Assembly: GCA_964019135.1 (NCBI GenBank)
Contig: OZ025256.1
Coordinates: forward strand, 38,226,035 to 38,290,034
Source: Arenicola marina
Lineage: Eukaryota > Annelida > Polychaeta > Arenicolidae
Direction of reading: 5' to 3'
Length of the DNA: 64,000 nucleotides
The position numbers were made by a program, and so were the translations under genes. Of the stretch, positions 6,041 to 61,300 are shown piece by piece. Each line of letters starts with the position of its first letter. Positions within the stretch are counted from its first letter, which is position 1. A model generated the notes under the pieces. The model was not told the DNA's origin. It saw only the letters and a program-made list of their open reading frames with translations, and did not search any database.

Positions 6041-6523
6041 GGGGGGCGGGGGGAGGGGGGGGTATTCAACCAAGAATGTTGCTGAAAGAGCCAGAGACAC
6101 GCCCGAAATATAACTTCAGTAGTGCTACCTTTTACGCCGGTTCGCATTGCGTCCATGGTGTCATATATCGTCAATTAACAATATTGTATTTAAGTGATAC
6201 GCCGAAACTTAATAATTTAATTCTGATTCTAATCCATCGGTGATAAGAACAGATACACTCCACCTGTACGAATGTCATTATTTATGATTGAGTTATTATT
6301 TTGTGTGCATAAATGCTATTGAATCTTAAATCTTGACGTTTGATGCGACAAAAGTAGTTTAGATAAAATGGTGTTTACGTCGTTGTCGTATCAATGTTCA
6401 GTTGCAAACAGTGGGGCGTGAGTTAGTAACTGAGAACTGTCAGCTGCAAATAGGTAAAGGACAACATTCAGACAAATTAAGTAACAATTTAACCAGGAGC
6501 TGCGGTACAATAAATCTACTTAC

Positions 6524-7724
6524 TAATCTCTCCCTGCATCTCCCCGACGCGACCTTTGAGCTCAATCCTCGTGTATTTGTCGAGGTCCTTGGTGTCTCTG
6601 GCTTTCGTGGTGGGATCCCCGTGTTTGGCCAAGTCTCGCGCCAGCTTAGAACTGTGCTTCTCCAGATCCGCGACCTTCCGGCGCAGCTGTCGACTCTCCT
6701 CCTCAACGCCGCGCAGCTTGTCGCGCATGTCACGTGTCTGCTCTGCGGGATCTTGCTCCGCCTCGCGAGATCGCGCCTTGAGGACCGACTTGGAGAGTTT
6801 ACTGGTGCGTTCGTCCAGCAACTTGATCTGCGCGCGCATCGAGGCGTTCTCCGCCTCTAGCTGCCGCACGTTCTCGGCGAGTTCAATGTTTTTGAGGACG
6901 GCGTCATCGGCGGTGATGGCGGGCAGCCGGCGACTCGCCTGCGACTCCAGCTTGGTGTTCTGCAGCACCAGCTTCTCGTTTTCTCTCTCCAGCTTCTCCA
7001 GTTTGTCCCGGAGCACCTGCGCCTCCCGCTCTACCGTCTCCAGCTGTTTGCCCATGTCCTGGGGCTGCTCCCCGGCTGCCGATCCAGACTTGGCCCCCGC
7101 CGACAGCTCCTCGTTGTACTCCTCCAGGGATCTGGATTTCTTGAGCTTGCGGACGCCCGAGGACTCGCCCGGAACCCGGAGCCGGTCGACCTCGGTGTCC
7201 TTCTCGATGAGCTTCCACTTGAGGTGCTCGATGTCCTCCGCCATGGCTATGATCTTCTCCTCGTAGGGTCTGTTGTCCTCGGCGGTCTCGCCTGGCTCCT
7301 TGCCCCCCACCTTCTCCTCCAGCTTGGCCAGCAGCATGCGCACCTGGCCCACGCGCGTCTCGTTCTCCTGCTCCATCTCGTTCAACTTCCGGTGCAGCAC
7401 CTTCACTTCCTGTTCCGCCAGCTCCATCTGCAGTCGGAGCTCGTGTTCGCGCTCCGTCACCACCTCCTTGTCCTTCAGGTCGCCCTTCTTCAGGAACTTG
7501 CCGCTCTTCGCCGAGGATATCTTCTGCAGTTGCATGTTGAGACCCTCGTTTTCTTCCTCCAGATCGGAGAGCTTCTTCCGGAATATTTTGCATTCTTCCT
7601 CGGCAAATTTGAGCTGTTCTTTGAGATCGTTTTCGCGCTCCAAGCTATCCGAGAGGTCACGCATGACCTGGGCAAGGTCAAAGCTCCCGTCCGCACTTCC
7701 CTGCTTGGTTTGCCCTAGAGATGG
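6524..7724 (-). CDS. MTCL1-like: MTCL1-like exon 2: continuous coiled coil
   Basis: 1,201 nt. Branch-site-like TACTAAT and acceptor GTGTTCCAG|CCA, phase 0, match the phase-0 donor of exon 1. The donor is ATTA|GTAAGT. It encodes 400 residues of heptad-rich coiled coil: [39 protein letters not shown] and further blocks, like the SOGA pattern LQFAKEEAFLMRKKM and LRLKLVEEEANILGRKI. A serine/lysine patch ([13 protein letters not shown]) interrupts the coil. Open frames on the opposite strand are shadows. Confidence 0.9.
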
Positions 7725-13700: not shown

Positions 13701-16700
13701 GCGCTGTTGTCCTCCAGGAGGTCCCCCACGCGGTTTTCCGCCTCCTCCACCTTGCCCTTCAGGTCGGCGATCTCGTCCTCCTGTTGCTTCATGGAGAAGC
13801 GCTCGCTCTCCGGCAGCTTGAGGCGGTCCATCAGGCGGAGTTTCTCGGAGGCGAGGCGCTCGGCCTGCACCTCCAGCTCGCCGATCTTCATCTGGTAGCG
13901 GTCCTCCATGTTGTAGAAGTCCTCCTTCTTGTGGGACAGCAGCTCGCCCAGCGTCGTCTTCTCCCGCCCCAGCCGGTCGCACCGGTCCTCCAGCGTCGCC
14001 ACCTTCTCCCGCAGGCTGTCCATCAACATCCGGGTGCCCTCCATCATGGCCGACTCGCGGCCCACGTGGTCCAGCCCCCGCCATCCTGGCCTGCGCCGCC
14101 TGCCAGGCGCTCTCGTCCACGCTGGGTCGCTTCCGGTACCGCTTCCGGTCCTCGAGCTGGTAGTCCTCGTCGGTCTGGCTCCTAGTCGGCACTACATTGC
14201 TGCTGTAGTACCAGTCCGGGTCCTCCGTGGCGACGGTCTCGCCGCCCTGGCGGTAGCCGCCGGAACCACCCCGCCCGTCCCCGCCCCCGCCGTACCCCGC
14301 TTGGTGGTGCTGCTGGTGGTGGTGGTGCTGCTGCTCGGCAGGTGGCGCGTGCTGCTGCTCGCCAGGTGGCGCGTACTGCTGCCCCCACTGGTGGTGACTG
14401 TTGCCTGCCGGATAGTGCTGCAGCACGGATGACGAGGATATCTGGCCTAGGATGTCCGCCGAGACCTGCGGCAGGCTATCCGGGATCTCACAGCGGCCCG
14501 CCGGATCACCGTATCCAGATGTCCCGCCGCTGTAATCCTGATCCGGATGTTCGATGAAGCTGTCCTGTCTGTCGTACAGGGGGCCCCCGCCGCCGGAACA
14601 CGGCTGCTCGTCGCTGTAGTAATCGCTTTCCGCGAATGACCTTGACCTTGGATTGAAGTCGTCTTGACTTCCCCCCGACGGGATTGTTGTTGTTGTTGTT
14701 GTTGTTGTTTGTGTTGTCGCTGTCGTGGTACACAATCGCCCCGGTATAGTAATCCACTGCTCCGGTCTCGGACTCAATCCCGCTGTCGATCAGAGTGGTT
14801 TGAGATCCGGAATCTCCCGTGTCGTAGTAAGGCGGTGACGTAGCTGGGGACAGGTCCCGGCTGTCGGGGTCTGGATCCTGAGTACTGGACCCCGCCACGG
14901 GCTGGCTGGCCGACTGCCCGACGCTAGACTGCGGTCTCCCCGGCCCCTCTCGGCCCGCCTCGCCCTCCGCCTGGCTGTCCGCGGTGTCCCGGGCAGCCTC
15001 TGGCTTAGCTCCGGATGCGCTGATGACTTGTCTATTATTAGAGGTCTCCTTCGGTTCCCTGGTTACCTCCGCGTCATCTTCTTCTTCCTCTTCCTCCTCC
15101 TCTTCCTCCTCCTCCTCCTCCCCTTCCCCCTCCGCCGCGCTGCTCCGACGGCGTGTTGTTAACGCCGGGTCTCTCTCGAAGGCCGACTCCCCCCAGACCC
15201 CGGCCCCGACAGCCTCACCCTCTAGGGCGAGAGACGGGGGCGGGAGCGGTGGGGGTGACGGCGACTGGGCCGGGCTGGGTCGGAGGCCGTGTGGATCCTG
15301 AACTCCGGAGTGTGGCGGTGTCGCACCTGATCCTGAGGAATCCCTGGGGCTGTGGGTCCCCCCTTGGTCCGGCGTGAGGACTGTCGGTGACGGTAGTCCG
15401 GTCGGTGAGTGGCCCGGTCCCTCTCTGCCGCTACCGCCGGCCGCTGACTGCTCACCCTGCCCCCCAGTCCCCTCTCCGGTGCCGACCTTTAAGCCACCCC
15501 CGCCGGCCTCGTCACTGCCGCTGCCGGCTTGCGGCCCACTCGGGGTGGGCCGGGGGGGTGCTGGCTTCACACCCTCGTCCGGAGCCGCAGCGGCAGGGGG
15601 GTGAGGGTGGGCGGTGGCAGTATTTAAAGCACCCTCCTTTACTTCCTGGCGCTTCCTGTTCGCTTCTAGCGAGCCAGATATCGCGGTATCGCAGGGCGAG
15701 ATGCCTTCACTGGAGGGCCGCTCCGTGGGCTGGCGTGGCTGCTGCTGATGCTGAAGCGGGTGTGACTCCCGGCTCTCTGCCGGAGTACTTGACTGGTCCT
15801 GACTAGAACTTATGGCACGCGGCGTTCCTGGCGGTGCGTCTCTGGCCTGGGCCTGACCCTCCCCCTCCGCCCGCGCCTCCCCACCCCCAGCAGTGGTAGC
15901 GGGCGGCTCCCGGTGCACGGTAGTTATTTCTGACTCGGGCCGCCCGCCCGCTGCCAATGTCTCTGGAGCTTCCTGGCGCTGTACCGAAGTCGGCTCACTA
16001 TCGCCCGACTTCCCGGCACCCGCGGGCTGGGGCGGGGGCTGGGGGTGGGAGCCAGTGGAGGAGGGTGAGGGGGTAGCCTCACCCCCCTTCCCCGGGGCCC
16101 TTCCTCCCGCGGCAGCTGCATGCGAGGATCCGGACGCAGGCGCCTGCTGCCCCTCCTCGCCCCCTCCACCTCTCCCCACCTTCTGGATCGCCGGACTCCC
16201 CGCTCCAGATGACGTGGATGAGGGCCCGGGATCCGCTTTCGGCGCCGCTATCGCTCCAGTACTTCCGACAGCAGGACTGCCCCCTTGTCCGCCATCCCCA
16301 CCGCCTGCCCCACCGCCCCCGCCACCCCCGCCACCCTCTCCACTGCTCGCACTTTTCTTCTCGGAGCCAGAAGAATCCTGGTCCTTCTCTCTATCTGGGA
16401 CCGGTTTCCTCGGACCCCCGCCTGGCGTGGTGTCGGCGCTGGCTGGCGAATCCTTATCCACCCCCTTCCCCGCGCCCTTCCCCACCCCACCCTCCTCCAC
16501 TGCCCCCTTTCCCGCGCCCTTCCCCACCCCACCCTCCTCCACTGCCCCCTTCCCCGCGCCTTTCCCCACCCCACCCTCCTCCACTGCCCCCTTCCCCGCG
16601 CCCTTCCCCACCCCACCCTCCTCCACTGCCCCCTTCCCCGCGCCCTTCCCCACCCCCTTCGCCGCCCCACCCCCCTTCACCTCTGTCGGCTTACTGTCTG

Positions 16701-17564
16701 ACTCGTTACTCCCTGTTGTAATATTCTTCGTTGTAGCTGCACCTTTAGAAGTCTTTGCGGGTTCTTTACCATTTTTCTCATCTTTCTTGCTGCGCTTCGC
16801 TGCTGATTTCCCTTCACTTTTGCTGCTTTCTTTGGTCCCTTTGCTATTCACTGCGGCAGTCTTCTCTTGAGAAGTCTCGCTGGACTTGGCGTTCTTCCCC
16901 TTGCTTTCACCCTCCGAACCTTTCCCATTGCCTTTCTGCTGTTTACCCTTATCGCTAGATACGCCTTTGTCTCCCACTTTATTAACCTTTGGCTCTGGTT
17001 TACCCTTCTGTGACGCCGTCATGGCGCTCCCCGCCTCCTTGCCCCGCCCATCTTCAGCGAGCTTCACGCTCGATTCGCCAGGTGGCGCTGTGGTGCCGGC
17101 GCCTGGCTTGGGCCCGACCGCTGTGGGTGCCGCCTTGGGCTCGGGCTTGGGCACGACGGCCTTGGGCTCGGGCTTGGGCACGATGGCCTTGGGCTCGGGC
17201 TTGGGCACGACGGCCTTGGGCTCGGGCTTGGGCACGATGGCCTTGGGCTCGGGCTTGGGCACGATGGCCTTGGGCTCGGGCTTGGGCACGATGGCCTTGG
17301 GCTCGGGCTTGGGCACGATGGCCTTGGGCTCGGGCTTGGGCTGGGGCTCAGCTTCTTCATTATGCTGTTCCTCGGTTTTGAAACAGTTTTTACACAGATT
17401 TTTCCGAAATAATTGCGGCTCGAATGTGATACATCTGACCGACTTGCCTGCTGATCTGGGTCTGGCGCTCATGGTCAAGGTGCCATTGTGTGGGGGGGCT
17501 GACTATCGATGGGGTTCCGTGTGGCCCTCCCTGCAGCTAGCGGTCAGTCCCCGCAGCTCTGGCC
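6524..17564 (-). CDS. MTCL1-like: SOGA/MTCL1-family coiled-coil microtubule-associated protein (5' two coding exons)
   Basis: MTCL proteins crosslink and stabilise microtubules through long coiled coils; SOGA names the same family. The key evidence is in the coiled coil: [31 protein letters not shown], then [20 protein letters not shown] and [12 protein letters not shown], which follow the vertebrate block with NKNCRILQYRLRKAEQKS and KVAKDVSVRLHHEL. Exon 1 (17564-13259) holds the 5' UTR and about 1,404 codons; exon 2 (7724-6524) adds 400. The rest lies to the left, outside what can be recognised. The N-terminal 900 residues are low-complexity and disordered-looking. Two single-base frame breaks lie in G runs. 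Which vertebrate paralogue it equals is undetermined. Confidence 0.87.
7725..11040. other. MTCL1-like intron, 3' half; no gene seen
   Basis: Part of the single intron between exons 1 and 2. It is AT-rich near 8-8.6 kb, with G/C-rich patches at 8,890-8,980 and C/T-rich sequence at 9,690-10,330. I see no coding exon or named element here. Confidence 0.6.
11046..11193. mobile_element. Short MITE with GGATCC-containing inverted ends
   Basis: 148 bp. Left end CAGGATGGGATCCAG; right end reversed CAGGGGCGGATCCAC. Flanked by AAGAC on both sides. The end sequence is shared with the element at 1545, so it is probably the same hAT-like group, though the duplication is only 5 bp. Confidence 0.6.
11815..12010. 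repeat. 27-29-bp degenerate tandem repeat
   Basis: Seven or so units with ATGTCGATATTCA followed by CTGAAGTAA. Confidence 0.8.
12236..12451. mobile_element. PIF/Harbinger-type MITE with TAA target duplication
   Basis: 216 bp, inverted ends of about 24 bp (GGGGCGCACCA, then TATCAGGG) and TAA on each side. AT-rich interior without an open frame. The TAA duplication and G-rich end fit the PIF/Harbinger group. Confidence 0.75.
12545..12880. repeat. About 42-bp tandem repeat with CACCCTAA motifs
   Basis: Around eight degenerate units: ACACCCTAATGTTACC, then CTCAGTGTAAACATC. The intron of the MTCL1-like gene. Confidence 0.85.
13090..13245. repeat. 8-bp AGGTCAAN array next to the MTCL1-like exon 1 donor
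   Basis: About 16 units of (T/A)AGGTCAA, giving direct AGGTCA half-sites spaced by 2 bp. It begins about 15 bp inside the intron. Confidence 0.9.
13259..17564 (-). CDS. MTCL1-like: MTCL1-like exon 1: 5' UTR end, start codon, low-complexity N-terminus, coiled coil
   Basis: Acceptor TCATTCCAG|GGCC at 17565; ATG at 17472-17470 ([14 protein letters not shown]), the first ATG in frame after the acceptor. In order: a C-x2-C-F motif (LCKNCFK, Cys27 and Cys30), about eight PKPEPKAIV repeats (residues ~43-115), Lys/Ser-rich stretch, 14-residue [14 protein letters not shown] repeats (~270-340), Pro/Gly-rich region, poly-Glu (~785-800), poly-Asn (~920), a His/Gln-rich stretch, then coiled coil from ~1137. 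The frame moves at 14,68x (run of six G on the coding strand) and near 14,08x (run of five G); removing one G in each gives 4,212 nt = 1,404 codons ending in phase 0 at the donor AAC|GTGAGT. These are probably homopolymer errors. Confidence 0.87.
16465..16660. repeat. 42-bp in-frame coding repeat ([14 protein letters not shown])
   Basis: Four to five units of 42 bp in MTCL1-like exon 1, nearly identical at DNA level, encoding Lys/Gly-rich then Glu/Glu/Gly blocks. Confidence 0.93.
17117..17346. repeat. 27-bp in-frame coding repeat (PKPEPKAIV)
   Basis: About eight near-identical 27-bp units inside MTCL1-like exon 1. They differ mainly at one Ile/Val codon (ATC or GTC). This is a recent in-frame expansion. 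Confidence 0.93.
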
Positions 17565-43042: not shown

Positions 43043-43383
43043 CTACTGAGGCTGGCCGCCGGTGCCATTGACCAGGGCGCCGCCCCCGTGGCTGGGGTGG
43101 GCGTCTGAGGGGGCGGGGGCGGGGCCCCCCGGGGCGGTGGCCCCCTTCTTCACCCGGCCTGCCAGGTAGCGCTCCGCCTTCTGCATGGCGTCCGGGATGT
43201 CCCCGGCGCTCTTGGTGCTGTAGCTGATCAGGAGTTCGGGAGCGCTGAGCTCGCCCCGCGTGATGCGGTCGCACGTCCGGATCAGGTCGTAGTTGATGGC
43301 GTCCGAGACGATCGAGTCCTGCTTGTAATCCGGGTGATCCGCCACGAACTTCCGGATCCACCGGGCCGTCGTCATCAGCTCAC
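43043..43383 (-). CDS. GCLC: GCLC last exon L with stop
   Basis: 341 nt to a TAG stop. It begins [20 protein letters not shown], nearly identical to the human C-terminal domain start, then [15 protein letters not shown]. The acceptor is CCGACAG|GT. The tail after SAPELL continues for about 58 residues rich in Gly, Pro and Ala (ends GTGGQPQ) and does not resemble the human tail. A GTCA-rich short repeat follows within about 20 bp of the stop. Confidence 0.95.
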
Positions 43384-46300
43384 CTGTCGGGATCAACAGA
43401 GGCGAATATAGGACGACAGCTCATTGGCTGAACGCTCCAGAGATGTGTACACTCCATATATGTGAACGCTCTATAGATGTGAACATGCCATAGATGTGAA
43501 CACTTCATAGATGTGAACACTCCATAGATGTGAACACTCCACAGATGTAAACACTACATAGATGTGAACACTCCATATATGTGAACGCTCTATAGATGTA
43601 AACATGCCATAGATGTGAACACTTCATAGATGTGAACACTCCACAGATGTGAACACTTCATAGATGTGAACACTCCAAAGATGTGAACACTCCATAGATG
43701 TAAACACTCCACAGATGTAAACACTACATAGATGTGAACACTCCATATATGTGAACGCTCTATAGATGTGAACATGCCATAGATGTGAACACTCCAAAGA
43801 TGTGAACACTCCACAGATGTAAACACTACATAGATGTGAACACTCCATAGATGTGAACGTTCCAGATGTGAACGCTACATAGATGTAAACACTACATAGA
43901 TGTGAACACTCCATAGATGTGAACAGTTCATAGATGTGAATGCTCCATAGATGTGAACACTCCATAGATGTGAACACTCCATAGATGTGAACACTCCACA
44001 GATGTGAACATTCCATAGATGTAAACACTTCATAGATGTGAACATTGCATAGATGTGAACATTGCATAGATGTGAACACTCCATAGATGTGAACACTCCA
44101 TAGATGTGAACACTCCATAGATGTGAACACTCCATAGATGTGAACACTACATAGATGTGAACACTCCATATATGTGAACACTCCAAAGATGTGAACACTC
44201 CATAGATGTAAACACTCCACAGATGTAAACACTACATAGATGTGAACACTCCATATATGTGAACGCTCTATAGATGTGAACATGCCATAGATGTGAACAC
44301 TCCAAAAAATGTGAACACTCCACAGATGTAAACACTACATAGATGTGAACACTCCATAGATGTGAACGTTCCAGATGTGAACGCTACATAGATGTAAACA
44401 CTACATAGATGTGAACACTCCATAGATGTGAACAGTTCATAGATGTGAATGCTCCATAGATGTGAACACTTCATAGATGTGAACACTCCATAGATGTGAA
44501 CAATCCACAGATGTGAACATTCCATAGATGTAAACACTTCATAGATGTGAACATTGCATAGGTGTGAACACTCCATAGATGTGAACACTCCATAGACAGT
44601 CCCCCTAAAAGAGAAACCTATATTAACTATCATGGTTCATCACTTTCATCGGTTACTTACTGTTTCTTAAACTTACCTGAGGCTCTCTTCTGGGTCAGGT
44701 TGAGGTACTGGGCGATGGTGCACCTTACCTGAGGCTCTCTTCTGGATCAGGTTGAGGTACTGGGTGATGGTGCACCTTACCTGAGGCTCTCTTCTGGATC
44801 AGGTTGAGGTACTGGGTGATCGTTCCCCGTACCTGAGGCTCTCTTCTGGATCAGGTTGAGGTACTGGGTGATGGTGCACCTTACCTGAGGCTCTCTTCTT
44901 GATCAGGTTGAGGTACTGGGCGATGGTGCACCTTACCTGAGGCTCTCTTCTGGATCAGGTTGAGGTACTGGGTGATGGTGCACCTTACCTGAGGCTGTCT
45001 TCTGGATCAGGTTGAGGTACTGGGTGATGGTGCACCTTACCTGAGGCTCTCTTCTGGATCAGGTTGAGGTACTGGGTGATAGTGCACCTTACCTGAGGCT
45101 CTCTTCTGGATCAGGTTGAGGTACAGGGTGATGGTGCACCTTACCTGAGGCTCTCTTCTGGATCAGGTTGAGGTACTGGGCGATGGTGCACCTTACCTGA
45201 GGCTCTCTTCTGGATCAGGTTGAGGTACTGGGTGATGGTGCACCGTACCTGAGGCTCTCTTCTGGATCATGTTGAGGTACTGGGTGATGGTGCACCTTAC
45301 CTGAGGCTCTCTTCTGGATCAGGTTAAGGTACTGGGTGATGGTGCACCGTACCTGAGGCTCTCTTCTGGATCAGGTTGAGATACTGGGTGATGGTGCACC
45401 TTACCTGAGGCTCTCTCCTGGATCATGTTGAGGTACTGGGTGATGGTGCACCTTACCTGAGGCTCTCTTCTGGATCAGGTTGAGGTACTGGGTGATGGTG
45501 CACCGTACCTGAGGCTCTCTTCTGGATCATGTTGAGGTACTGGGTGATTGTGCACCGTACCTGAGGCTCTCTTCTGGATCAGGTTAAGGTACTGGGTGAT
45601 GGTGCACCTTACCTGAGGCTCTCTTCTGGATCATGTTGAGGTACTGGGTGATGGTGCACCTTACCTGAGGCTCTCTTCTGGATCAGGTTGAGGTACTGGG
45701 TGATGGTGCACCTTACCTGAGGCTCTCTTCTGGGTCAGGTTGAGGTACTGGGTGATGGTGCACCGTACCTGAGGCTCTCTTCTGGATCAGGTTGAGGTAC
45801 TGGGTGATGGTGCACCTTACCTGAGGCTCTCTTCTGGATCATGTTGAGGTACTGGGTGATGGTGCACCTTACCTGAGGCTCTCTTCTGGATCAGGTTGAG
45901 GTACTGGGTGATGGTGCACCGTACCTGAGGCTCTCTTCTGGATCATGTTGAGGTACTGGGTGATTGTGCACCTTACCTGAGGCTCTCTTCTGGATCAGGT
46001 TAAGGTACTGGGTAATGGTGCACCTTACCAGAGGCTCTTTTCTGGATCAGGTTAAGGTACTGGGTGATGGTGCACCGTACCTGAGGCTCTCTTCTGGATC
46101 AGGTTGAGATACTGGGTGATGGTGCACCTTACCTGAGGCTCTCTTCTGGATCATGTTGAGGTACTGGGTGATGGTGCACCTTACCTGAGGCTCTCTTCTG
46201 GATCAGGTTGAGGTACTGGGTGATGGTGCACCGTACCTGAGGCTCTCTTCTGGATCATGTTGAGGTACTGGGTGATTGTGCACCGTACCTGAGGCTCTCT

Positions 46301-49300
46301 TCTGGATCAGGTTAAGGTACTGGGTGATGGTGCACCTTACCTGAGGCTCTCTTCTGGATCATGTTGAGGTACTGGGTGATGGTGCACCTTACCTGAGGCT
46401 CTCTTCTGGATCATGTTGAGGTACTGAGTGATGGTGCACCTTACCTGAGGCTCTCTTCTGGGTCAGGTTGAGGTACTGGGTGATGGTGCACCGTACCTGA
46501 GGCTCTCTTCTGGATCAGGTTGAGGTACTGGGTGATGGTGCACCTTACCTGAGGCTCTCTTCTGGATCATGTTGAGGTACTGGGTGATGGTGCACCTTAC
46601 CTGAGGCTCTCTTCTGGATCAGGTTGAGGTACTGGGTGATGGTGCACCGTACCTGAGGCTCTCTTCTGGATCATGTTGAGGTACTGGGTGATTGTGCACC
46701 TTACCTGAGGCTCTCTTCTGGATCAGGTTAAGGTACTGGGTGATGGTGCACCTTACCTGAGGCTCTCTTCTGGGTCAGGTTGAGGTACTGGGTGATGGTG
46801 CACCTTACCTGAGGCTCTCTTCTTGATCAGGTTGAGGTACTGGGCGATGGTGCACCTTACCTGAGGCTCTCTTCTGGATCAGGTTAAGGTACTGGGTGAT
46901 GGTGCACCTTACCTGAGGCTCTCTTCTGGATCAGGTTGAGGTACTGGGTGATGGTGCACCTTACCAGAGGCTCTCTTCTTGATCAGGTTGAGGTACTGGG
47001 TGATGGTGCACCTTACCAGAGGCTCTTTTCTGGATCAGGTTAAGGTACTGGGTGATGGTGCACCGTACCTGAGGCTCTCTTCTGGATCAGGTTGAGGTAC
47101 TGGGTGATGGTGCACCTTACCTGAGGCTCTCTTCTGGATCATGTTGAGGTACTGGGTGATGGTGCACCTTACCTGAGGCTCTCTTCTGGATCAGGTTGAG
47201 GTACTGGGTGATGGTGCACCGTACCTGAGGCTCTCTTCTGGATCATGTTGAGGTACTGGGTGATTGTGCACCTTACCTGAGGCTCTCTTCTGGATCAGGT
47301 TAAGGTACTGGGTGATGGTGCACCTTACCTGAGGCTCTCTTCTGGGTCAGGTTGAGGTACTGGGTGATGGTGCACCTTACCTGAGGCTCTCTTCTTGATC
47401 AGGTTGAGGTACTGGGCGATGGTGCACCTTACCTGAGGCTCTCTTCTGGATCAGGTTAAGGTACTGGGTGATGGTGCACCTTACCTGAGGCTCTCTTCTG
47501 GATCAGGTTGAGGTACTGGGTGATGGTGCACCTTACCAGAGGCTCTCTTCTTGTTCAGGTTGAGGTACTGGGTGATGGTGCACCTTACCAGAGGCTCTTT
47601 TCTGGATCAGGTTAAGGTACTGGGTGATGGTGCACCGTACCTGAGGCTCTCTTCTGGATCAGGTTGAGGTACTGGGTGATGGTGCACCTTACCTGAGGCT
47701 CTCTTCTGGATCAGGTTGAGGTACTGGGTGATGGTGCACCGTACCTGAGGCTCTCTTCTGGATCATGTTGAGGTACTGGGTGATTGTGCACCGTACCTGA
47801 GGCTCTCTTCTGGATCAGGTTAAGGTACTGGGTGATGGTGCACCTTACCTGAGGCTCTCTTCTGGATCATGTTGAGGTACTGGGTGATGATGCACCTTAC
47901 CTGAGGCTCTCTTCTGGATCAGGTTGAGGTACTGGGTGATGGTGCACCTTACCTGAGGCTCTCTTCTGGATCAGGTTGAGGTACTGGGTGATGGTGCACC
48001 TTACCTGAGGCTCTCTTCTGGGTCAGGTTGAGGTACAGGGTGATGGTGCACCTTACCTAAGGCTGTCTTCTGGATCATGTTGAAGTACTGGGTGATGGTG
48101 CACCTTACATGAGGCTCTCTTCTGGATCAGGTTGAGGTACTGGGTGATGGTGCACCTTACCTGAGGCTGTCTTCTGGATCAGGTTGAGGTACTGGGTGAT
48201 GGTGCACCTTACCTGAGGCTCTCTTCTGGATCAGGTTGAGGTACTGGGTGATAGTGCACCTTACCTGAGGCTCTCTTCTGGATCAGGTTGAGGTACAGGG
48301 TGATGGTGCACCTTACCTGAGGCTCTCTTCTGGATCAGGTTGAGGTACTGGGTGATGGTGCACCTTACCTGAGGCTCTCTTCTGGATCAGGTTGAGGTAC
48401 TGGGTGATGGTGCACCGTACCTGAGGCTCTCTTCTGGATCATGTTGAGGTACTGGGTGATGGTTCACCTTACCTGAGGCTCTCTTCTGGATCATGTTGAG
48501 GTACAGGGTGATGGTGCACCTTACCTGAGGCTCTCTTCTGGATCAGGTTGAGGTACTGGGCGATGGTGCACCTTACCTGAGGTTCTCTTCTGGATCATGT
48601 TGAGGTACAGGGTGATGGTGCACCTTACCTGAGGCTCTCTTCTGGATCAGGTTGAGGTACAGGGTGATGGTGCACCGTACCTGAGGCTCTCTTCTGGATC
48701 ATGTTGAGGTACTGGGTGATTGTGCACCTTACCTGAGGCTCTCTTCTGGATCAGGTTGAGGTACAGGGTGATGGTGCACCTTACCTGAGGCTCTCTTCTG
48801 GATCAGGTTAAGGTACTGGGTGATGGTGCAGCTTACCCGAGGCTCTCTTCTGGATCAGGTTGAGGTACTGGGTGATGGTGCACCTTACCTGAGGCTCTCT
48901 TCTGGATCAGCTTGAGGTACTGAGTGATGGTGCAGCTTACCTGAGGCTCTCTTCTGGATCAGGTTGAGGTACTGGGTGATAGTGCACCGTACCTGAGGCT
49001 CTCTTCTGGATCATGTTGAGGTACTGGGTGATTGTGCACCGTACCTGAGGCTCTCTTCTGGATCAGGTTAAGGTACTGGGTGATGGTGCACCTTACCTGA
49101 GGCTCTCTTCTGGATCATGTTGAGGTCCTGGGTGATGGTGCACCTTACCTGAGGCTCTCTTCTGGATCAGGTTGAGGTACTGGGTGATGGTGCACCTTAC
49201 CTGAGGCTCTCTTCTGGGTCAGGTTGAGGTACAGGGTGATGGTGCACCTTACCTAAGGCTGTCTTCTGGATCATGTTGAAGTACTGGGTGATGGTGCACC

Positions 49301-52300
49301 TTACATGAGGCTCTCTTCTGGATCAGGTTGAGGTACTGGGCGATGGTGCAGCTTACCCGAGGCTCTCTTCTGGATCAGGTTGAGGTACTGGGTGATGGTG
49401 CACCTTACCTGAGGCTCTCTTCTGGGTCAGGTTGAGGTACTGGGTGATGGTGCACCTTACCTGAGGCTCTCTTCTGGATCATGTTGAGGTACTGGGTGAT
49501 GGTGCACCTTACCTGAGGCTCTCTTCTGGATCAGGTTGAGGTACTGGGTGATTGTGCACCTTACCTGAGGCTCTCTTCTGGGTCAGGTTGAGGTACAGGG
49601 TGATGGTGCACCGTACCTGAGGCTCTCTTCTGGATCAGGTTGAGGTACTGGGTGATGGTGCACCTTACCTGAGGCTCTCTTCTGGATCATGTTGAGGTAC
49701 TGGGTGATGGTGCACCTTACCTGAGGCTCTCTTCTGGATCAGGTTGAGGTACTGGGTGATGGTGCACCGTACCTGAGGCTCTCTTCTGGATCATGTTGAG
49801 GTACTGGGTGATTGTGCACCTTACCTGAGGCTCTCTTCTGGATCAGGTTAAGGTACTGGGTGATGGTGCACCTTACCAGAGGCTCTTTTCTGGATCAGGT
49901 TAAGGTACTGGGTGATGGTGCACCGTACCTGAGGCTCTCTTCTGGATCAGGTTGAGGTACTGGGTGATGGTGCACCTTACCTGAGGCTCTCTTCTGGATC
50001 AGGTTGAGGTACTGGGTAATGGTGCACCGTACCTGAGGCTCTCTTCTGGATCATGTTGAGGTACTGGGTGATTGTGCACCGTACCTGAGGCTCTCTTCTG
50101 GATCAGGTTAAGGTACTGGGTGATGGTGCACCTTACCTGAGGCTCTCTTCTGGATCATGTTGAGGTACTGGGTGATGGTGCACCTTACCTGAGGCTCTCT
50201 TCTGGGTCAGGTTGAGGTACAGGGTGATGGTGCACCTTACCTAAGGCTGTCTTCTGGATCATGTTGAAGTACTGGGTGATGGTGCACCTTACATGAGGCT
50301 CTCTTCTGGATCAGGTTGAGGTACTGGGTGATGGTGCACCTTACCTGAGGCTGTCTTCTGGATCAGGTTGAGGTACTGGGTGATGGTGCACCTTACCTGA
50401 GGCTCTCTTCTGGATCAGGTTGAGGTACTGGGTGATAGTGCACCTTACCTGAGGCTCTCTTCTGGATCAGGTTGAGGTACAGGGTGATGGTGCACCTTAC
50501 CTGAGGCTCTCTTCTGGATCAGGTTGAGGTACTGGGTGATGGTGCACCTTACCTGAGGCTCTCTTCTGGATCAGGTTGAGGTACTGGGTGATGGTGCACC
50601 GTACCTGAGGCTCTCTTCTGGATCATGTTGAGGTACTGGGTGATGGTTCACCTTACCTGAGGCTCTCTTCTGGATCATGTTGAGGTACAGGGTGATGGTG
50701 CACCTTACCTGAGGCTCTCTTCTGGATCAGGTTGAGGTACTGGGCGATGGTGCACCTTACCTGAGGTTCTCTTCTGGATCATGTTGAGGTACAGGGTGAT
50801 GGTGCACCTTACCTGAGGCTCTCTTCTGGATCAGGTTGAGGTACAGGGTGATGGTGCACCGTACCTGAGGCTCTCTTCTGGATCATGTTGAGGTACTGGG
50901 TGATTGTGCACCTTACCTGAGGCTCTCTTCTGGATCAGGTTGAGGTACAGGGTGATGGTGCACCTTACCTGAGGCTCTCTTGTGGATCAGGTTAAGGTAC
51001 TGGGTGATGGTGCAGCTTACCCGAGGCTCTCTTCTGGATCAGGTTGAGGTACTGGGTGATGGTGCACCTTACCTGAGGCTCTCTTCTGGATCAGCTTGAG
51101 GTACTGAGTGATGGTGCAGCTTACCTGAGGCTCTCTTCTGGATCAGGTTGAGGTACTGGGTGATAGTGCACCGTACCTGAGGCTCTCTTCTGGATCATGT
51201 TGAGGTACTGGGTGATTGTGCACCGTACCTGAGGCTCTCTTCTGGATCAGGTTAAGGTACTGGGTGATGGTGCACCTTACCTGAGGCTCTCTTCTGGATC
51301 ATGTTGAGGTCCTGGGTGATGGTGCACCTTACCTGAGGCTCTCTTCTGGATCAGGTTGAGGTACTGGGTGATGGTGCACCTTACCTGAGGCTCTCTTCTG
51401 GGTCAGGTTGAGGTACAGGGTGATGGTGCACCTTACCTAAGGCTGTCTTCTGGATCATGTTGAAGTACTGGGTGATGGTGCACCTTACATGAGGCTCTCT
51501 TCTGGATCAGGTTGAGGTACTGGGCGATGGTGCAGCTTACCCGAGGCTCTCTTCTGGATCAGGTTGAGGTACTGGGTGATGGTGCACCTTACCTGAGGCT
51601 CTCTTCTGGGTCAGGTTGAGGTACTGGGTGATGGTGCACCTTACCTGAGGCTCTCTTCTGGATCAGGTTGAGGTACTGGGTGATGGTGCACCTTACCTGA
51701 GGCTCTCTTCTGGATCAGGTTGAGGTACTGGGTGATTGTGCACCGTACCTGAGGCTCTCTTCTGGATCATGTTGAGGTACAGGGTGATGGTGCACCTTAC
51801 CTGAGGCTCTCTTCTGGGTCAGGTTGAGGTACTGGGTGATGGTGCACCTTACCTGAGGCTCTCTTCTGGATCAGGTTGAGGTACTGGGTGATTGTGCACC
51901 GTACCTGAGGCTCTCTTCTGGATCATGTTGAGGTACAGGGTGATGGTGCACCTTACCTGAGGCTCTCTTCTGGGTCAGGTTGAGGTACTGGGTGATGGTG
52001 CACCTTACCTGAGGCTCTCTTCTGGATCAGGTTGAGGTACTGGGTGATGGTGCACCGTACCTGAGGCTCTCTTCTGGATCATGTTGAGGTACTGGGTGAT
52101 GGTGCACCTTACCTGAGGCTCTCTTCTGGATCAGGTTGAGGTACTGGGTGATGGTGCACCTTACCTGAGGCTCTCTTCTGGATCAGGTTGAGGTACTGGG
52201 TGATGGTGCACCTTACCTGAGGCTGTCTTCTGGATCAGGTTGAGGTACTGGGCGATGGTGCACCTTACCTGAGGCTCTCTTCTGGATCAGGTTGAGGTAC

Positions 52301-55300
52301 TGGGTGATTGTGCACCGTACCTGAGGCTCTCTTCTGGATCATGTTGAGGTACAGGGTGATGGTGCACCTTACCTGAGGCTCTCTTCTGGGTCAGGTTGAG
52401 GTACTGGGTGATGGTGCACCTTACCTGAGGCTCTCTTCTGGATCAGGTTGAGGTACTGGGTGATGGTGCACCTTACCTGAGGCTCTCTTCTGGATCAGGT
52501 TGAGGTACTGGGTGATTGTGCACCGTACCTGAGGCTCTCTTCTGGATCATGTTGAGGTACAGGGTGATGGTGCACCTTACCTGAGGCTCTCTTCTGGGTC
52601 AGGTTGAGGTACTGGGTGATGGTGCACCTTACCTGAGGCTCTCTTCTGGATCAGGTTGAGGTACTGGGTGATGGTGCACCTTACCTGAGGCTCTCTTCTG
52701 GATCAGGTTGAGGTACTGGGTGATTGTGCACCGTACCTGAGGCTCTCTTCTGGATCATGTTGAGGTACAGGGTGATGGTGCACCTTACCTGAGGCTCTCT
52801 TCTGGGTCAGGTTGAGGTACTGGGTGATGGTGCACCTTACCTGAGGCTCTCTTCTGGATCAGGTTGAGGTACTGGGTGATGGTGCACCGTACCTGAGGCT
52901 CTCTTCTGGATCATGTTGAGGTACTGGGTGATGGTGCACCTTACCTGAGGCTCTCTTCTGGATCAGGTTGAGGTACTGGGTGATGGTGCACCTTACCTGA
53001 GGCTCTCTTCTGGATCAGGTTGAGGTACTGGGTGATGGTGCACCTTACCTGAGGCTCTCTTCTGGATCAGGTTGAGGTACTGGGCGATGGTGCACCTTAC
53101 CTGAGGCTCTCTTCTTGATCAGGTTGAGGTACTGGGCGATGGTGCACCTTACCTGAGGCTCTCTTCTGGATCAGGTTGAGGTACTGGGTGATGGTGCACC
53201 TTACCTGAGGCTCTCTTCTGGATCAGGTTGAGGTACAGGGTGATGGTGCACCTTACCTGAGGCTCTCTTCTGGATCAGGTTGCGGTACTGGGCGATGGTG
53301 CACCTTACCTGAGGCTCTCTTCTGGATCAGGTTGAGGTACTGGGTGATGGTGCACCTTACCTGAGGCTCTCTTCTGGATCATGTTGAGGTACTGGGTGAT
53401 TGTGCACCGTACCTGAGGCTCTCTTCTGGATCAGGTTGAGGTACTGGGTGATGGTGCACCTTACCTGAGGCTCTCTTCTGGATCAGGTTGAGGTACTGGG
53501 TGATGGTGCACCTTACCTGAGGCTCTCTTCTGGATCAGGTTGAGGTACTGGGTGATGGTGCACCTTACCTGAGGCTCTCTCCTGGATCAGGTTATGGTAC
53601 TGGGTGATGGTGCACCTTACCTGATGCTCTCTTCTGGATCAGGTTGAGGTACTGGGCGATAGTGGACCTCACCTGAGGCTCTCTTCTGGATCATGTTGAG
53701 GTACAGGGTGACGGTGCACCTTACCTGAGGCTCTCTTCTGGATCAGGTTGAGGTACTGGGCGATGGTGCACCTTACCTGATGCTCTCTTCTGGATCATGT
53801 TGAGGTACTGGGTGATTGTGCACCTTACCTGAGGTTCTCTTCTGGATCAGGTTGAGGTACAGGGTGATGGTGCACCTTACCTGATGCTCTCTTCTGGATC
53901 ATGTTGAGGTACTGGGTGATGGTGCACCTTACCTGAGGCTCTCTTCTGGATCAGGTTGAGGTACAGGGTGATGGTGCACCTTACCTGATGCTCTCTTCTG
54001 GATCAGGTTGAGGTATTGGGTGATGGTGCACCTTACCTGAGGCTCTCTTCTGGATCAGGTTGAGGTACAGGGTGATGGTGCACCTTACCTGAGGCTCTCT
54101 TCTGGATCAGGTTGAGGTACTGGGTGATGGTGCACCTTACCTGAGGCTCTCTTCTGGATCAGGTTGAGGTACTGGGTGATAGTGCACCTTACCTGATGCT
54201 CTCTTCTGGATCAGGTTGAGGTACTGGGTGATAGTGCACCTTACCTGAGGCTCTCTTCTGGATCAGGTTGAGGTACTGGGTGATGGTGCACCTTACCTGA
54301 GGCTCTCTTCTGGATCAGCTTGAGGTACTGGGTGATGGTGCAGCTTACCTGAGGCTCTCTTCTGGATCAGGTTGAGGTACTGGGTGATAGTGCAGCTCGT
54401 GTCCACGTCGCAGTCATCCACACTCTGCATGTACTCCTGGATCAGGGGCACGAGACCCGGGAACTCGCCGGGCTGGGGGGGGGGGGGTGAAAGGTGACAG
54501 AGGTAAGTTTACTCCGTCAGTCATACGTATGTTACTCGAAAATTGTTAACTGTCGGCTTCTGTCCATAGATAGCAATAGTTCACAAGCTTCATCCCGGTT
54601 TGCGACATTAATATCTTATAAATGTTTAAAGTTGCATATCGAGCTCTTTCCCGCCCAAACTAAGCCCAGGCGACATCTATATCACAATTTGCAGAAAAGT
54701 TGATTGTTTCATTCTATAAAATCAGAAACTTGATAAACATCGCCGTTTCGGCTGTGATATGGCAAACAGAACTCGGTCGCAACACTGCGACTTATAACAA
54801 AGCATCGCGAAGCACACAAACTGATGACGTTTACCACTAAGTTGAAAACCTGTTGTAAATTGATATCACGGGCAAGGCTAAGAGACTTCATTTGGCAGTT
54901 TGCCATGTGTGAAATATAGACAACAGAAATTTTGGATGATTTAAGGACTGATTCTTATTTGTATTTTGACCTCTTTTGTTTTGGCGGGAAAGAGCTCGAT
55001 AAGTAACTTTAACACACTTATTGCATGAAATAAATAACAGGGCATGTTGTTTAGCCATTTGTCTAACAAACTGGTGTATGTTGTGTGGCCAAGTGTGCCT
55101 TTCTTGAGAACTAGATCTACGTCGTCAAACCGCGGCCGCTTCTATGCCTTTTTAAACACAGCTTATCTATTGGTAACATTCACACAGTAATTGACCCTGG
55201 TTCTGACTCCGGCCCTGGCCCTGACCCCGGCCCTGACCCCGGCGTCGACCTTGACCGCGGCCCTGACCCTGGCCCTGACTCCGGCCCTGCCCCTACCCTG

Positions 55301-58300
55301 ACCCTAACCCCGGCATCGCTCTGACCGCAGCGCTGACCCCTGCATCGACCTGAGCTCGACCCTTTCCCCGGCCCTGACCCCGGCCCCGACCCCGGGCCTG
55401 ACCCCGACCCCTACCCTGACCCCTACCCTGACCCCTACCTTGCCGTTGATGATCTCGACGATGGAGAGCATGACGTACTCCTCTTGGTCGCTGCACACCG
55501 ACCCCTCCTTGCCGGAGTCCTTCGGACACCCCCGGCACGCCCGCTCAGCCTCGCGCGGGGAGTTGCCTAGCAACAGGCGCAACGACAAGAGGGAAGCGAT
55601 GAGCACGTGTCGAGGAAGCAAACATAATTTCTCTACAATCCAAACATATTGAGTACCACTTTGTATCCTTCGGGATTTGTTTGAAACTATCTTTGTTACC
55701 ATACATTGTATTTTCGGCGGTTCTTTGGCATCAAATTGTATATAGAACTCCTCACATGTTATGAATTCTTATGTCACGATATTAGATTAAGGATACCCAG
55801 AACAGTTTAGAGCTATCCAGAAGAGTTTTTCAGAGCCTGTTGTTGCCTAGCAACACACATACATACATGTCGTGATGTCCTTCCGGAAGTAGAACTTCTC
55901 ATTCAAGACGGCGTCTCTCTTGTGAGCTTTCTTCATGTTCTCATCCACCTGACAAGAAAATACATCAATACATAAACAAAGAGCTATGTTTAGAACAGGG
56001 GGCGCAAGACGGAGTCAAAATCACTAACAAACCTGATGAGAGTAGAGCAAGAAAATCTAATCAAAAGTTATCTCAATACTGCTGTGACCGTACCACCGTG
56101 ACTGTACCGCCCGTGACGTTACCGCCGTGACCGCACCCCGCGTGACCGTACCGCCGTGACTGTACCCCCCGTGACGTTACCGCCGTGACCGCACCCCGCG
56201 TGACCGTACCGCCGTGACTGTACCCCCCGTGACCGTACCGCCGTGACGGTACCCCCCGTCACCGTACCGCCATGACCGTACAGCCGTGACTGTACCCCCC
56301 GTGACGTTACCACCGTGACCGTACCTCCGTGACCGTACCGCCGTGACTGTACCCCCCGTGACGTTACCGCCGTGACCGTACCCCCGTGACTGTACCACCG
56401 TGACCGTACAGCCGTGACCGTACCGCCGTGACCGTACCGCCGTGACTGTACCCCCCGTGACAGTACCGTCGTGACCGTACAGCTGTGACCGTACAGCCGC
56501 GACTGTACCACCCGTGACGTTACCGCCGTGACCGTACCGTCGTGACGGTACCCCCCGTCACCGTACCGTCGTGACCGTACAGCCGTGACTGTACCCCCCG
56601 TGACGTTACCACCGTGACCGTACCTCCGTGACTGTACCACCGTGACGGTACCGCCGTGACGTTACCGCCGTGACCGTACCCCCGTGACTGTACCACCGTG
56701 ACCGTACCGCCGTGACCGTACCGCCGTGACCGTACCGCCGTGACTGTACCCCCCGTGACAGTACCGTCGTGACCGTACAGCTGTGACCGTACAGCCGCGA
56801 CTGTACCCCCCGTGACGTTACCGCCGTGACCGTACCGCCGTGACTGTCCCCCCCTTGACCGTACACCCGTGACCGTACCGCCGTGACCGTACCCCCCTGA
56901 CCGTACCCCCGTGACTGTACCGCCGTGACCGTACTTCCGTGACCGTACCGGCGTGACCGTACCACCGTGATGGTAACCCCCGTGACGGTACCACCGTGAC
57001 GGTCCCCCCCGTGACCGTACCACCGTGACCGTATCGCCGTGACCGCACCGCCGTGACTGTACCCCCCGTGACCGTACCGCCGTGACTGTACCGCCGTGAC
57101 CGTACCACCGTGACCGTACCGCCGTGACTGCACCCCCCGTGACTGTATCGCCGTGACCGTACCCCGTGACGGTACCCCGTGACGGTACCGGCCGTGACCG
57201 TACCACCGTTACGGTACCCCCCGTGACCGTCCCGCCGTGACCGTGCACTGACCTTGGAGATGGGGATGACGAAGTTTAGTCTGTAGGAGAGGATAACGCG
57301 CGTCATGAGGACGATGAAGACGACGAAGGCAGCGTTCTCGAAGTCCGTCAGCTGAACCTGTGGCGTGACGTCATGCAGTGTCAATGTGACGTCACAACAC
57401 AGTGACCCCAAAATATACGTCAGAGATCAAGTAGACATAGAAAACTACAGGTTATGACGCCAGTAAAATGTAAACTAAAACTTCATGTCAAGGGCTACAA
57501 AATATATAACTTGATCAGTATACAATACTGGCCAACAGATTGCTCCCTCAACCAGATTGTAGTCACCCGTCAGGCATGGTAAAGCAAAGCCATGTGTGTC
57601 AAGGTCAATAGTTGCGTGAGTGCCCTCGAGGGGGCGTACCTCGGTGGGCCGGAACTCGACCCGCCAGCCAATGGGAGAGCAGGGGGGCGGGGGCTTAAAC
57701 CGCATCGTCTGCCAGTTGGTCGACTGAATGTTCTGTAGGACGAGACATCACGAGACATCACGAGACCACAGCGATATCATCAAACACAACTTGGATATAA
57801 CACACACATATATATATATATATATATACATTAATAAACGTTATTACTGCATCTATCTGGTTAAATGTCACCGTCATCTGTTTCCCATAATAAAGGAATT
57901 GCAATTTTGGGCCATCTTTCGTGGCAAACCAGATCCAGGCATCTGTGAAGTGGCACGGACAACAACATCTAATTAATGTTGACCACATACAGGCATATAT
58001 TCGCCATAATTGCCGCATTCCATTGAATTAAAGAAATTTATACCATTATGCACAATTTGTTAGTATTAAGGGGTAGATTTCTGTCAAACCAACGTTGAGA
58101 CTTTTAAAATAATTTGATTTTGATAAGAAAAACTTCTCTTTACCTCGAAGTGGTCAGTATCGCAGGAGTCGTTTTGCTTTAGTTTCTCGCTGAACAAAGA
58201 AATTGGATCTCGAATGAAGAGATGTGCAATGTGCTGCGCCAAGAGGTGATCGATATCTAAAAGATGTGAACAATGGACAGAACAGGAGCTTGAGAAACTG

Positions 58301-61300
58301 GATTTGAAACGCCAATCTAGGCACCCAGTGAGCATAAGCCTAGACCAAACGGCAGGTCATCGATGCGACGACTGCGGTAAGCTCTGTCGGTCACAAAATT
58401 AGTCATAAGCGCAAATGCCGCGAAAAAAAATTCCTACTTAAACCAAAACAAAAGCTGCAAATCCATCGTCTTTTGCAGACGAAACGGATGCCAACAGCAG
58501 GAGGTGATATTTGGCGGCATTTGCAAGATTGTAAGGAAGTCACCACAGGAGTGAAGCGATAACTGTACATGTGAGATTGCAGAACTATTTAAGGATTTGG
58601 TAGCCAGCCTGGCGTGACGGCTGCCCGCAGATCCCGTGGGCTATGTAGGGGGTCAGGGGTGGGGGGGGGGGCTACTGACCGGCGTCCACCAGCTGTTTGT
58701 AGACGGCTGGGTCCATGACGAGTGGAAGGTCGTTGTACTTCTCGGCGCAGGGCGACAAGTAGCTGTCGATGGAGTCGTAGCGAGACTTGTTGATCACAAA
58801 CTTGTCCTCCTTCAACTCCTGCAACACACACACGCACCAGAGGGTTAAACACGAAACATACACAGGCACCAAAGGGTTAAAGACGAAACCACACAGAAAA
58901 CAGAGGGTTATAGACAAAAATACACACTGAGACCAGAGGGTTAAAGACGAAAACACACACAGACACCATAGGGTTATAGACGAAAACACACACAAACACC
59001 AGAGAGTTACAGACGAAAACACACAGACACCAGAGGGTTAAAGACGAAAACACATGCAAACACCAGAGGGTTAAAGACGAAAACACAAACACAGACACCA
59101 GAGGGTTACAGACGAAAAAACACAGGCACCAGAGGGTTTAAGACGAAAACACATACAGACACCAGAGGATTAAATACGAAAACACACAGGCACGAGAGGG
59201 TTAAACACGAAACATACACAGGCACTAAAAGGTTAAAGACGAAACCACACACAGAAAATAGAGGGTTATAGACGAAAACACACAGAAAACAGAGGGTTAT
59301 AGACAAAAATACACACTGAGACCAGAGGGTTAAAGACGAAAACACACACAGACACCATAGGGTTATAGACGAAAACACACACAGACACCAGAGGGTTAAA
59401 GACGAAAACACACACAGACACCAGAGGGTTAAAGACGAAAACACACACAAACACCAGAGGGTTAAAGACGAAAACACACAGGCACCAGAGGGTTAAAGAC
59501 GAAAACACATACAAACACCAGAGGGTTAAAGACGAAAACACACACAGACACCAGAGGGTTAAAGACAAAAACATACACAAACATCAGAGGGTTAAAGACG
59601 AAAACACACACACAGACACTAGAGGGTTATAGACGAAAACACATACAGACACCAGAGGGTTAAAGACGAAAACACACAGGCACCAGAGGGTTATAGACGA
59701 AAACACACAGACACCAGACGGTTAAAGACGAAACACACAAACACCAGAGGGTTATCACATACTAGCACGCTGCGACCAGCAATAACAAGTTAGCTGTACT
59801 CAGCAATAACAAGTTAGCTGTACTCAGCATAGCACATTTAGCATGCACGTCCCAGTCAGTTCTCAATTACACTAAACGGTAGAAATGACACAATGACCAG
59901 CGGGCTTCGCGAGGTGTAGCAGGGACCAGAGTGACCAGAGGGACATGGGTCATAACGGCCCCCGGTGACTGTATGAGGCCGGACGGCGGTGGGTAGGGCA
60001 GTCAGCATGGTCCACCACTGGCAGTGACCGCTCTACATGGGGACTGCTTGCATGGCCGCTGTCAACTCATGGATGTCGCATTAAATGACGTGAAATGTAT
60101 TGGTGCTTTAGGCCGGCTTTGCGCACACAAGGGTTGAAGTGGGCCAAGGAACCTCCCGGGACGGTGAAGGACGGATGGCTGACACATGCCTCAGATTAAC
60201 TGCCCAGGCCATGATTCAAAACCGGGACCTGGATCTAGTCCGCTAACCACTTCACTACTCCGGGAGGTCTGGAAGGCGATCTGCTTCTCGCCCAACTCAC
60301 GTCAAGGCCACGTTCCTCTCTCGTGCGGTCGTCCACGGAGGCGGATATGATGTCCCAGCGACAGTCCGTGTCCACCAGGAATCCTCGCTGGACGGGGCAG
60401 GCGGCACTCAGGGCCAGCTGGGGAAAGGGGGGGGGGGTGGGGGGGTAGCGACAGGAGATTAGAAAATTCCGTAATAGCAGATTTACATTTCCAAACAAGT
60501 TACGATTTCGGAAATTATAATATCAAATAGTATCATTTGTGGTTATTTGGTACATGTAGATAAAGATATTCCGGTATTGACGATCTTCCACTGCAAGTTT
60601 AATATATAATGTAGTATTTTACACGAATAAGATCATATCATATATAACGGAGTGGCAGTATGTGCAACCTATGCAACCACAACATTGAAGTCCATTGGTA
60701 ACCAATTGTATCTCCATACCAGCCGCCTAGGGACTCCATAGCAAAGGATTCATAACCAGTTTACCCCTGGAAGCTTCATACCCCGGCGTCACCCATGGGC
60801 GGTAACTACGGCGCCACGAGCCACCAGACCTATGCACCCATGACGCGAGAAACAGCTCCTCCAGAATATCCCAATTATCGCTCAGGCCCGTGACTCACCA
60901 CGATAGGACAGAGCGGGGTGAGCTGGTCGTAGAGGTAGCGGGCCTCGTCAATGTTACAGGCCTGGAACGTCATCTGGAGGCAGGAACACCCCATGCCGAA
61001 CCCCATCGCGTCCATATACACGTGGTCCGGCTTGGATGCGCGTGCAGCCTCACCGTCGTCGCCGTATTGGGTGAAGTCCTCCAGGAATGGTTGTGCTGTC
61101 TTCGTGTCTCTGTAAACTGATGGACAAGGCACTGACCTTCAAACAACACAGGTCACGCTGCAGTCCAGTGCGGTCGTTTCACTCATATTCTTAAACTATT
61201 GCTCGTAAAATTTCAAACTTTATGAAGTAAAGTTAGGATCAGTCATTAAATTTGCATATAAAAAACAGGGTTACGAGCTCGCCACTCTCAGTGAAACCTT

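Follow-up and report, generated by a model that had tools for sequence, protein, structure and literature searches.

A boundary-spanning minisatellite with 187 near-identical splice donors in the GCLC gene of Arenicola marina

We analyzed a window of 64,000 nucleotides from the Arenicola marina genome (assembly GCA_964019135.1, contig OZ025256.1, positions 38,226,035 to 38,290,034 of the forward strand), the minus strand of which carries the 3' part of GCLC, the gene for the catalytic subunit of glutamate-cysteine ligase, with a long array of 52-bp units in the intron before the last coding exon. Ten exons, labelled a-h, k and l (Table 1), joined without a frame error down to a stop at 43043; the start given to exon a in this model is arbitrary, and no 5' part of the gene could be located in the 64-kb window. 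The joined protein matched the Pfam GCS model (PF03074) over positions 1-372 of 372 (E = 5.5e-179, 595.7 bits) and the yeast glutamate-cysteine ligase 3ig5 (E = 1.8e-99), the latter alignment covering both sides of the k-l junction. Both the GCS domain and the homologous C-terminal exon expected of a GCLC gene were present, in agreement with the initial annotation, which had named GCLC. Third positions of the coding sequence in the window were 84% GC.

The k-l intron measured 10,965 bp, and tandem repeats made up 99% of it. Tandem Repeats Finder (TRF) reported an array at 44672-54394 with period 52, 187.0 copies, 94% matches and 0% indels. Cutting every 52 bp from the first donor (54348, minus strand) gave 186 in-register, head-to-tail units, from 54348 down to 44677, without an insertion or deletion. 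Each unit, in transcript sense, was GTAAGG followed by 46 nt copied from the end of exon k, so that 46 exon and 6 intron nucleotides were repeated together and the exon end plus its 186 copies offered 187 donors. This upheld the earlier description of the unit and its count of one true and about 186 decoy copies, and the GT, said there to be kept in almost all units read, was kept at 187 of 187 junctions. AG|GT was found at 173 and CAG|GT at 169 of the 187; the commonest junction 9-mers were CAG|GTAAGG (126) and CAG|GTACGG (38). The GT of donor 187 started at 44676 (GTAAGT) inside unique intron sequence, where the donor reads GTAAGTTTAAG. Behind exon k the intron consisted of the 186 units (88% of its length), 80 nt of unique sequence, a 17-bp minisatellite and 45 nt before exon l. 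The array is not a chance pattern, since CAGGTAAG occurred 128 times within the 186 units and twice in the remaining window (once per strand). We dropped the lack of indels as a special feature because the 17-, 12- and 19-bp arrays at 43429, 25637 and 5636 also had 0% indels.

We next considered which of the 187 donors can yield the enzyme. When donor 1 was joined to exon l the frame stayed open, with the junction RAS|GEL aligning without a gap to yeast RASGELPTTAKF. This junction is conserved with yeast, and donor 1 alone restored it. With donor 2 the stop ended 4 nt inside the last exon, with donor 3 it lay 48 nt ahead of the junction, and with donors 4-187 (184 donors) it lay more than 50 nt ahead. 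All 186 later donors arrived at one common premature stop (tails displayed for 5 of the 186), so the 113 normal GCLC residues encoded after the k-l junction would be lost from each. The initial annotation was right in that later donors would give premature stops. A functional GCLC protein would require donor 1 unless another GCLC locus exists.

Table 1. Positions of the GCLC exons and intron features in the window
Feature	Position	Strand	Evidence
GCLC exon a	ends at 60899	-	gene model, Pfam, yeast homologue
GCLC exon b	60301-60417	-	gene model, Pfam, yeast homologue
GCLC exon c	58680-58818	-	gene model, Pfam, yeast homologue
GCLC exon d	58144-58256	-	gene model, Pfam, yeast homologue
GCLC exon e	57640-57732	-	gene model, Pfam, yeast homologue
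GCLC exon f	57253-57357	-	gene model, Pfam, yeast homologue
GCLC exon g	55867-55948	-	gene model, Pfam, yeast homologue
GCLC exon h	55439-55566	-	gene model, Pfam, yeast homologue
GCLC exon k, 124 nt	54349-54472	-	closed frame, Pfam GCS, yeast homologue; repeat unit copied from its last 46 nt (54349-54394)
Donor 1, CAG|GTAAGC	54343-54351	-	sole in-frame junction with the last exon among 187
186 tandem 52-bp units, each with a donor GT	44677-54348	-	TRF, register cutting, unit alignment
Example of the predicted donor-hiding hairpin, units 2-3	54236-54276	-	folding of the consensus unit, prediction only
Units 53-80, first copy of the 42-unit-lag block duplication	50189-51644	-	runs of 12 and 15 units identical at lag 42
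Units 95-122, second copy of the 42-unit-lag block	48005-49460	-	identical runs at lag 42
Donor 187, CAG|GTAAGT, full donor-consensus match	44671-44679	-	unique intron sequence downstream
17-bp minisatellite, 68.9 copies, acceptor side of intron k-l	43429-44596	-	TRF
GCLC exon l, last coding exon, intact	43043-43383	-	acceptor ...gatcccgacag|GTGAGCTG; closed-frame gene model

The strength of each donor was taken as its duplex energy with the 5' end of U1. Donor 1 scored -11.0 kcal/mol, a level reached by 0.14% of the GT sites outside the array (n = 3,498), and the eight other GCLC donors examined lay between -3.6 and -9.7. Among the 186 later donors, 130 were equal to donor 1 or better and 128 strictly better. 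Donor strength cannot account for the choice of donor 1 because so many copies pair better with U1, and the initial annotation was right to speak of competing donors. The last 46 nt of exon k differed from the unit consensus at one base; the exonic context is near-identical across units, and therefore local enhancers would hardly distinguish the donors. What does distinguish donor 1 is its position, 124 nt behind the exon k acceptor and first to be transcribed. Of the established mechanisms for such a choice, exon definition and early commitment are the simplest. Under exon definition the acceptor of exon k would be paired with the first donor of good quality, giving a 124-nt exon, later donors needing exons of 176, 228, 280 and so on up to 9,796 nt, and donor 1 would also win by being transcribed first. 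Leakage to any other donor would end at the one common stop. We consider it likely that the array is a giant boundary-spanning ("mirage") minisatellite, mostly a neutral passenger, in which exon definition chooses donor 1.

The junctions also suggested how the array arose. Exon k reads ...GAG|CTGCAC... where the duplicated segment would begin, and the first duplication probably comprised 47 exon and 5 intron nucleotides (CTGCAC...GTAAG, 52 bp). A single tandem duplication would have joined intron ...GTAAG to exon CTGCAC..., the breakpoints sharing the 2 nt AG. GTAAGC opens unit 1 and six further units, and the other 179 begin with GTAAGG; the G at +6 in most units is probably a later change, and unit 1 would retain the ancestral C. 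A copy landing behind a working donor would become intron sequence and for that reason be harmless. Unequal exchange or slippage could then have multiplied the unit, with block duplications following later.

Mean identity of the 186 units to their own consensus was 97.2%, with 53 distinct units, 32 units equal to the consensus, and 37 variant states spread over the 52 columns. The eight donor columns held 6 of the 37 variant states, against 5.7 expected, and 1 of the 11 single-unit variants; the G and T columns of the donor were invariant, as were 18 other columns. Selection to keep or to destroy donors was not supported: the donor columns are as variable as the other columns, and the donors appear neither preserved nor removed, which is what a neutral array would be expected to give. 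At a lag of 42, identical units came in runs of 12 and 15, and runs of 7-9 were seen at lags of 4, 11 and 16. When unit order was shuffled 200 times, no run longer than 5 appeared at any lag up to 120, compared with 15 in the array. The array therefore grew partly by duplication of blocks of units. Units 54-83 differed from units 96-125 at 6 of 1,560 bases.

The closest known counterparts of the array are in lancelets. Lancelet "mirages" are tandem repeats over exon-intron boundaries in Adh3, the globin genes BflGb6 and BflGb9, and TnC, with a similar case in PGBD5 (PMC3087553, PMC3902484). Many of their units carry AG/GT signals, as do 173 of 187 junctions here, and the GCLC unit likewise spans the boundary, the array adjoining exon k. 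Either boundary can be duplicated in lancelets, BflGb9 showing the exon 3' boundary as in GCLC, and the Adh3 unit of 10-72 bp brackets our 52 bp. Repeats in mirages turn over while boundary copies, as in the globin repeats, escape homogenisation (PMC3087553), much as unit 1 of GCLC would have kept its C at +6. The block duplications in GCLC show that this array, too, has turned over in the past. Somatic instability is reported at Adh3, and the BflGb6 haplotypes have 6 and 3 units (PMC3087553, PMC3902484), whereas GCLC has 186 extra copies over 9.7 kb, on the donor side only. The initial annotation knew of no described case of this size; the array does lie far above those published counts, but its kind was already known from the lancelet mirages. 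We regard it as apparently an extreme case of the lancelet type, with membership judged by structure. In human UBC, units are also delimited by AGGT (found at 173 of 187 boundaries in GCLC) and splicing interacts with the tandem repeat, but the units are coding and the sites act as donor and acceptor, whereas the GCLC units are intronic and pyrimidine-poor before AG (PMC10809524). The gain of introns through tandem duplications that span AGGT (Rogers 1989, Zhuo 2007, Gao and Lynch 2009, via PMC3087553 and PMC2812944) resembles the GCLC case in that a boundary duplication adds sequence removed by splicing, and differs in that here an existing intron grows and no new one forms. Among titles and abstract openings in the open-licence literature we found no array of such size and none for GCLC, and subscription papers may contain a larger case. 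Turri, Cuin and Porter (1995) reportedly describe several splice donors supplied by a minisatellite in human 6-16 / IFI6, which would share with GCLC the presence of many donors in one transcript. A comparison of the GCLC protein with prokaryote genome contigs gave 26 pattern matches, none of them confirmed, and viral contigs contained no exact copy of a 45-nt core of the unit; both collections are non-animal and uninformative on relatives.

The most serious alternative is that splicing is heterogeneous, a sizeable share of transcripts using later donors and being degraded or yielding truncated protein, so that the array tunes GCLC output. The 128 copies that beat donor 1 in U1 pairing speak for it. 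Nonsense-mediated decay usually requires a stop located more than 50 nt upstream of the last junction, and 184 of the 186 alternative forms have such a stop. However, the donor columns bore no sign of selection, and exons longer than a few hundred nucleotides are poorly defined. Regular splicing is moreover reported by the authors to be undisturbed in the lancelet mirages (PMC3087553, PMC3902484). The initial annotation had left reliable use of the first donor and tuning through nonsense-mediated decay side by side; the former is better supported, by the lancelet cases and by RAS|GEL arising from donor 1 alone, while no evidence for the latter was found in the DNA sequence. We judge heterogeneous splicing to be rather unlikely.

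A second alternative is that RNA structure is the main cause of donor 1 winning, the C at +6 leaving it more open than the copies. Sequestration of a donor in RNA structure is an established means of limiting its use (PMC9311317). We predicted local folding thermodynamically, without proteins, under five settings, by default with a window of 200 and a span of 150, and scored the 9-nt donor stretch. This stretch was predicted to be the least accessible of the 52 phases of the unit, and the unpaired probability was 8e-7 for the median later donor, 1.7e-4 for donor 1 and 0.018 for donor 187, compared with GT sites outside the array (n = 3,433), for which the median was 5.5e-3 and the 1% quantile 3.8e-6. 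In a consensus array the donor was predicted to be unpaired at 2.2e-7, and none of 200 shuffled arrays (16 units each, donor fixed, the remaining 44 unit bases shuffled) was as closed. The predicted hairpin pairs GUACCU with AGGUGC and ACCUGA with UCAGGU at -13.8 kcal/mol, but reaches only -7.1 at donor 1. Donor 1 would form it less well because of the one base at +6; placing C there in the consensus array raised predicted accessibility to 8.5e-5. When U1 energy and opening cost were combined, donor 1 ranked 8, 12, 4, 30 and 2 of 187 in the five settings.

Several observations argued against such a role. The 24 stem columns held 17 of the 37 variant states, against 17.1 expected, so that selection on the hairpin was not supported, and the C31A variant, present in 48 of 186 units, opened the predicted consensus structure to 1.1e-4. 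The rank of 30 came with a 6-nt donor window, which placed donors 3 and 5 ahead, and with a window of 400 donor 2 nearly equalled donor 1 (-6.2 vs -6.3). Donor 187 was open in all five settings, and proteins have no part in the prediction. Masking as the main cause is therefore improbable; it is better seen as a by-product that may help donor 1, with internal donors predicted to fold into the hairpin and donor 1 to fold less well, and not as an established mechanism here. We give equally little credence to a self-masking decoy array, in which the unit would hide its own donor, so that nearly two hundred strong donors could accumulate beside the true one, with mainly the first (C at +6) and last (unique context) donors open and the gene able to switch between functional and dead transcripts through these ends 9.7 kb apart.

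The preferred reading, a neutral array with donor 1 chosen by position, has its own difficulties. Use of donor 1 is deduced from the protein and not from RNA. Donor 187 has the best U1 energy of all (-12.1 kcal/mol), ranks first when opening cost is added and is more accessible than donor 1 in all five settings. Among the nine GCLC donors examined, donor 1 itself has the lowest predicted accessibility, about 77-fold below that in the joined, array-free site (1.7e-4 vs 0.0135). In two-donor systems an intron-proximal donor can have the advantage as a general rule. Such a donor can be favoured when two compete, as in DOK7 (PMC5585400), and the GCLC locus is therefore a sharp test.

The copy number could also be an assembly error, through expansion, collapse or stitched haplotypes. 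The near-identity of units 54-83 and 96-125 would fit such an error, as would 200 N elsewhere in the window and the mis-assembly of a lancelet mirage in a genome draft (PMC3087553), but the unique flanks are clean, no indel occurs in 186 units, and there are 53 unit types and several repetition lags. We hold an error very unlikely, and it would alter the count and not the existence of the array. Least probable of all is dual-specific or recursive splicing, with AG|GT working both ways and the intron removed in 52-nt steps: AG|GT stands at 173 of 187 junctions and a tandem array of such sites is used in human UBC (PMC10809524), but purines dominate the tract that precedes the junction AG (35% pyrimidine on average, maximum 41%, vs 47-100% at nine GCLC acceptors). 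The other AGs in the unit (positions 20, 38 and 41) have tracts with a mean of 54-58% pyrimidine, overlapping the weaker real GCLC acceptors, so small internal exons are possible. A U1 reservoir or protection from early polyadenylation was set aside as speculation; AATAAA and ATTAAA were absent from the 52-bp array.

Arrays also lay close to splice junctions elsewhere in the gene. Of the nine GCLC introns, six were free of arrays of 100 bp or more. In each of the other three an array edge lay no more than 8 nt from a splice junction: 4 nt from the acceptor in b-c, 8 nt from the donor in f-g and 0 nt in k-l. The chances of such edges under random placement were 0.019, 0.125 and 0.033, respectively, which hints that arrays in this gene tend to form at splice sites. 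The 100-bp filter excluded a shorter array at the exon h donor.

That shorter repeat (55357-55439, donor AAG|GTAGGG) is a second, small donor-abutting repeat in GCLC: a 12-bp repeat opens the intron, with GTAGGG at 0, 12 and 24 nt, without AG. In intron b-c a 33-bp array of about 29 copies (58823-59754) stops 4 nt short of the exon c acceptor, the upstream tract of which is consequently derived from the repeat, and the 14-bp array at 56084-57244, starting 8 nt behind the exon f donor, makes up 89% of intron f-g. Tandem arrays of at least 100 bp (period at least 6) covered 20,214 of the 64,000 bases of the window. On the minus strand, 6516-17502 contains exons that code for a coiled-coil protein like SOGA/MTCL1 (Pfam SOGA, E = 6.6e-18 at 6516-7751), with a 998-residue open reading frame at 14506-17502 that contains coding 27-bp and 42-bp repeats and had no Pfam match. 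No structured RNAs or tRNAs were found in the window at curated thresholds.

Studies of donor choice mostly involve two or a few sites in competition. Here one gene presents 187 near-identical donors in near-identical exonic context, and only one of them yields the enzyme. If RNA shows that donor 1 is used, then position, through exon definition and transcription order, must outweigh U1 affinity and nearness to the acceptor; if donor 1 is not mainly used, a central redox enzyme tolerates massive mis-splicing. The array would also illustrate intron growth from within, since duplication of a donor boundary spares the exon and the array can thus keep expanding. The GCLC array is a clean natural test of how one splice site is picked among many near-equals.

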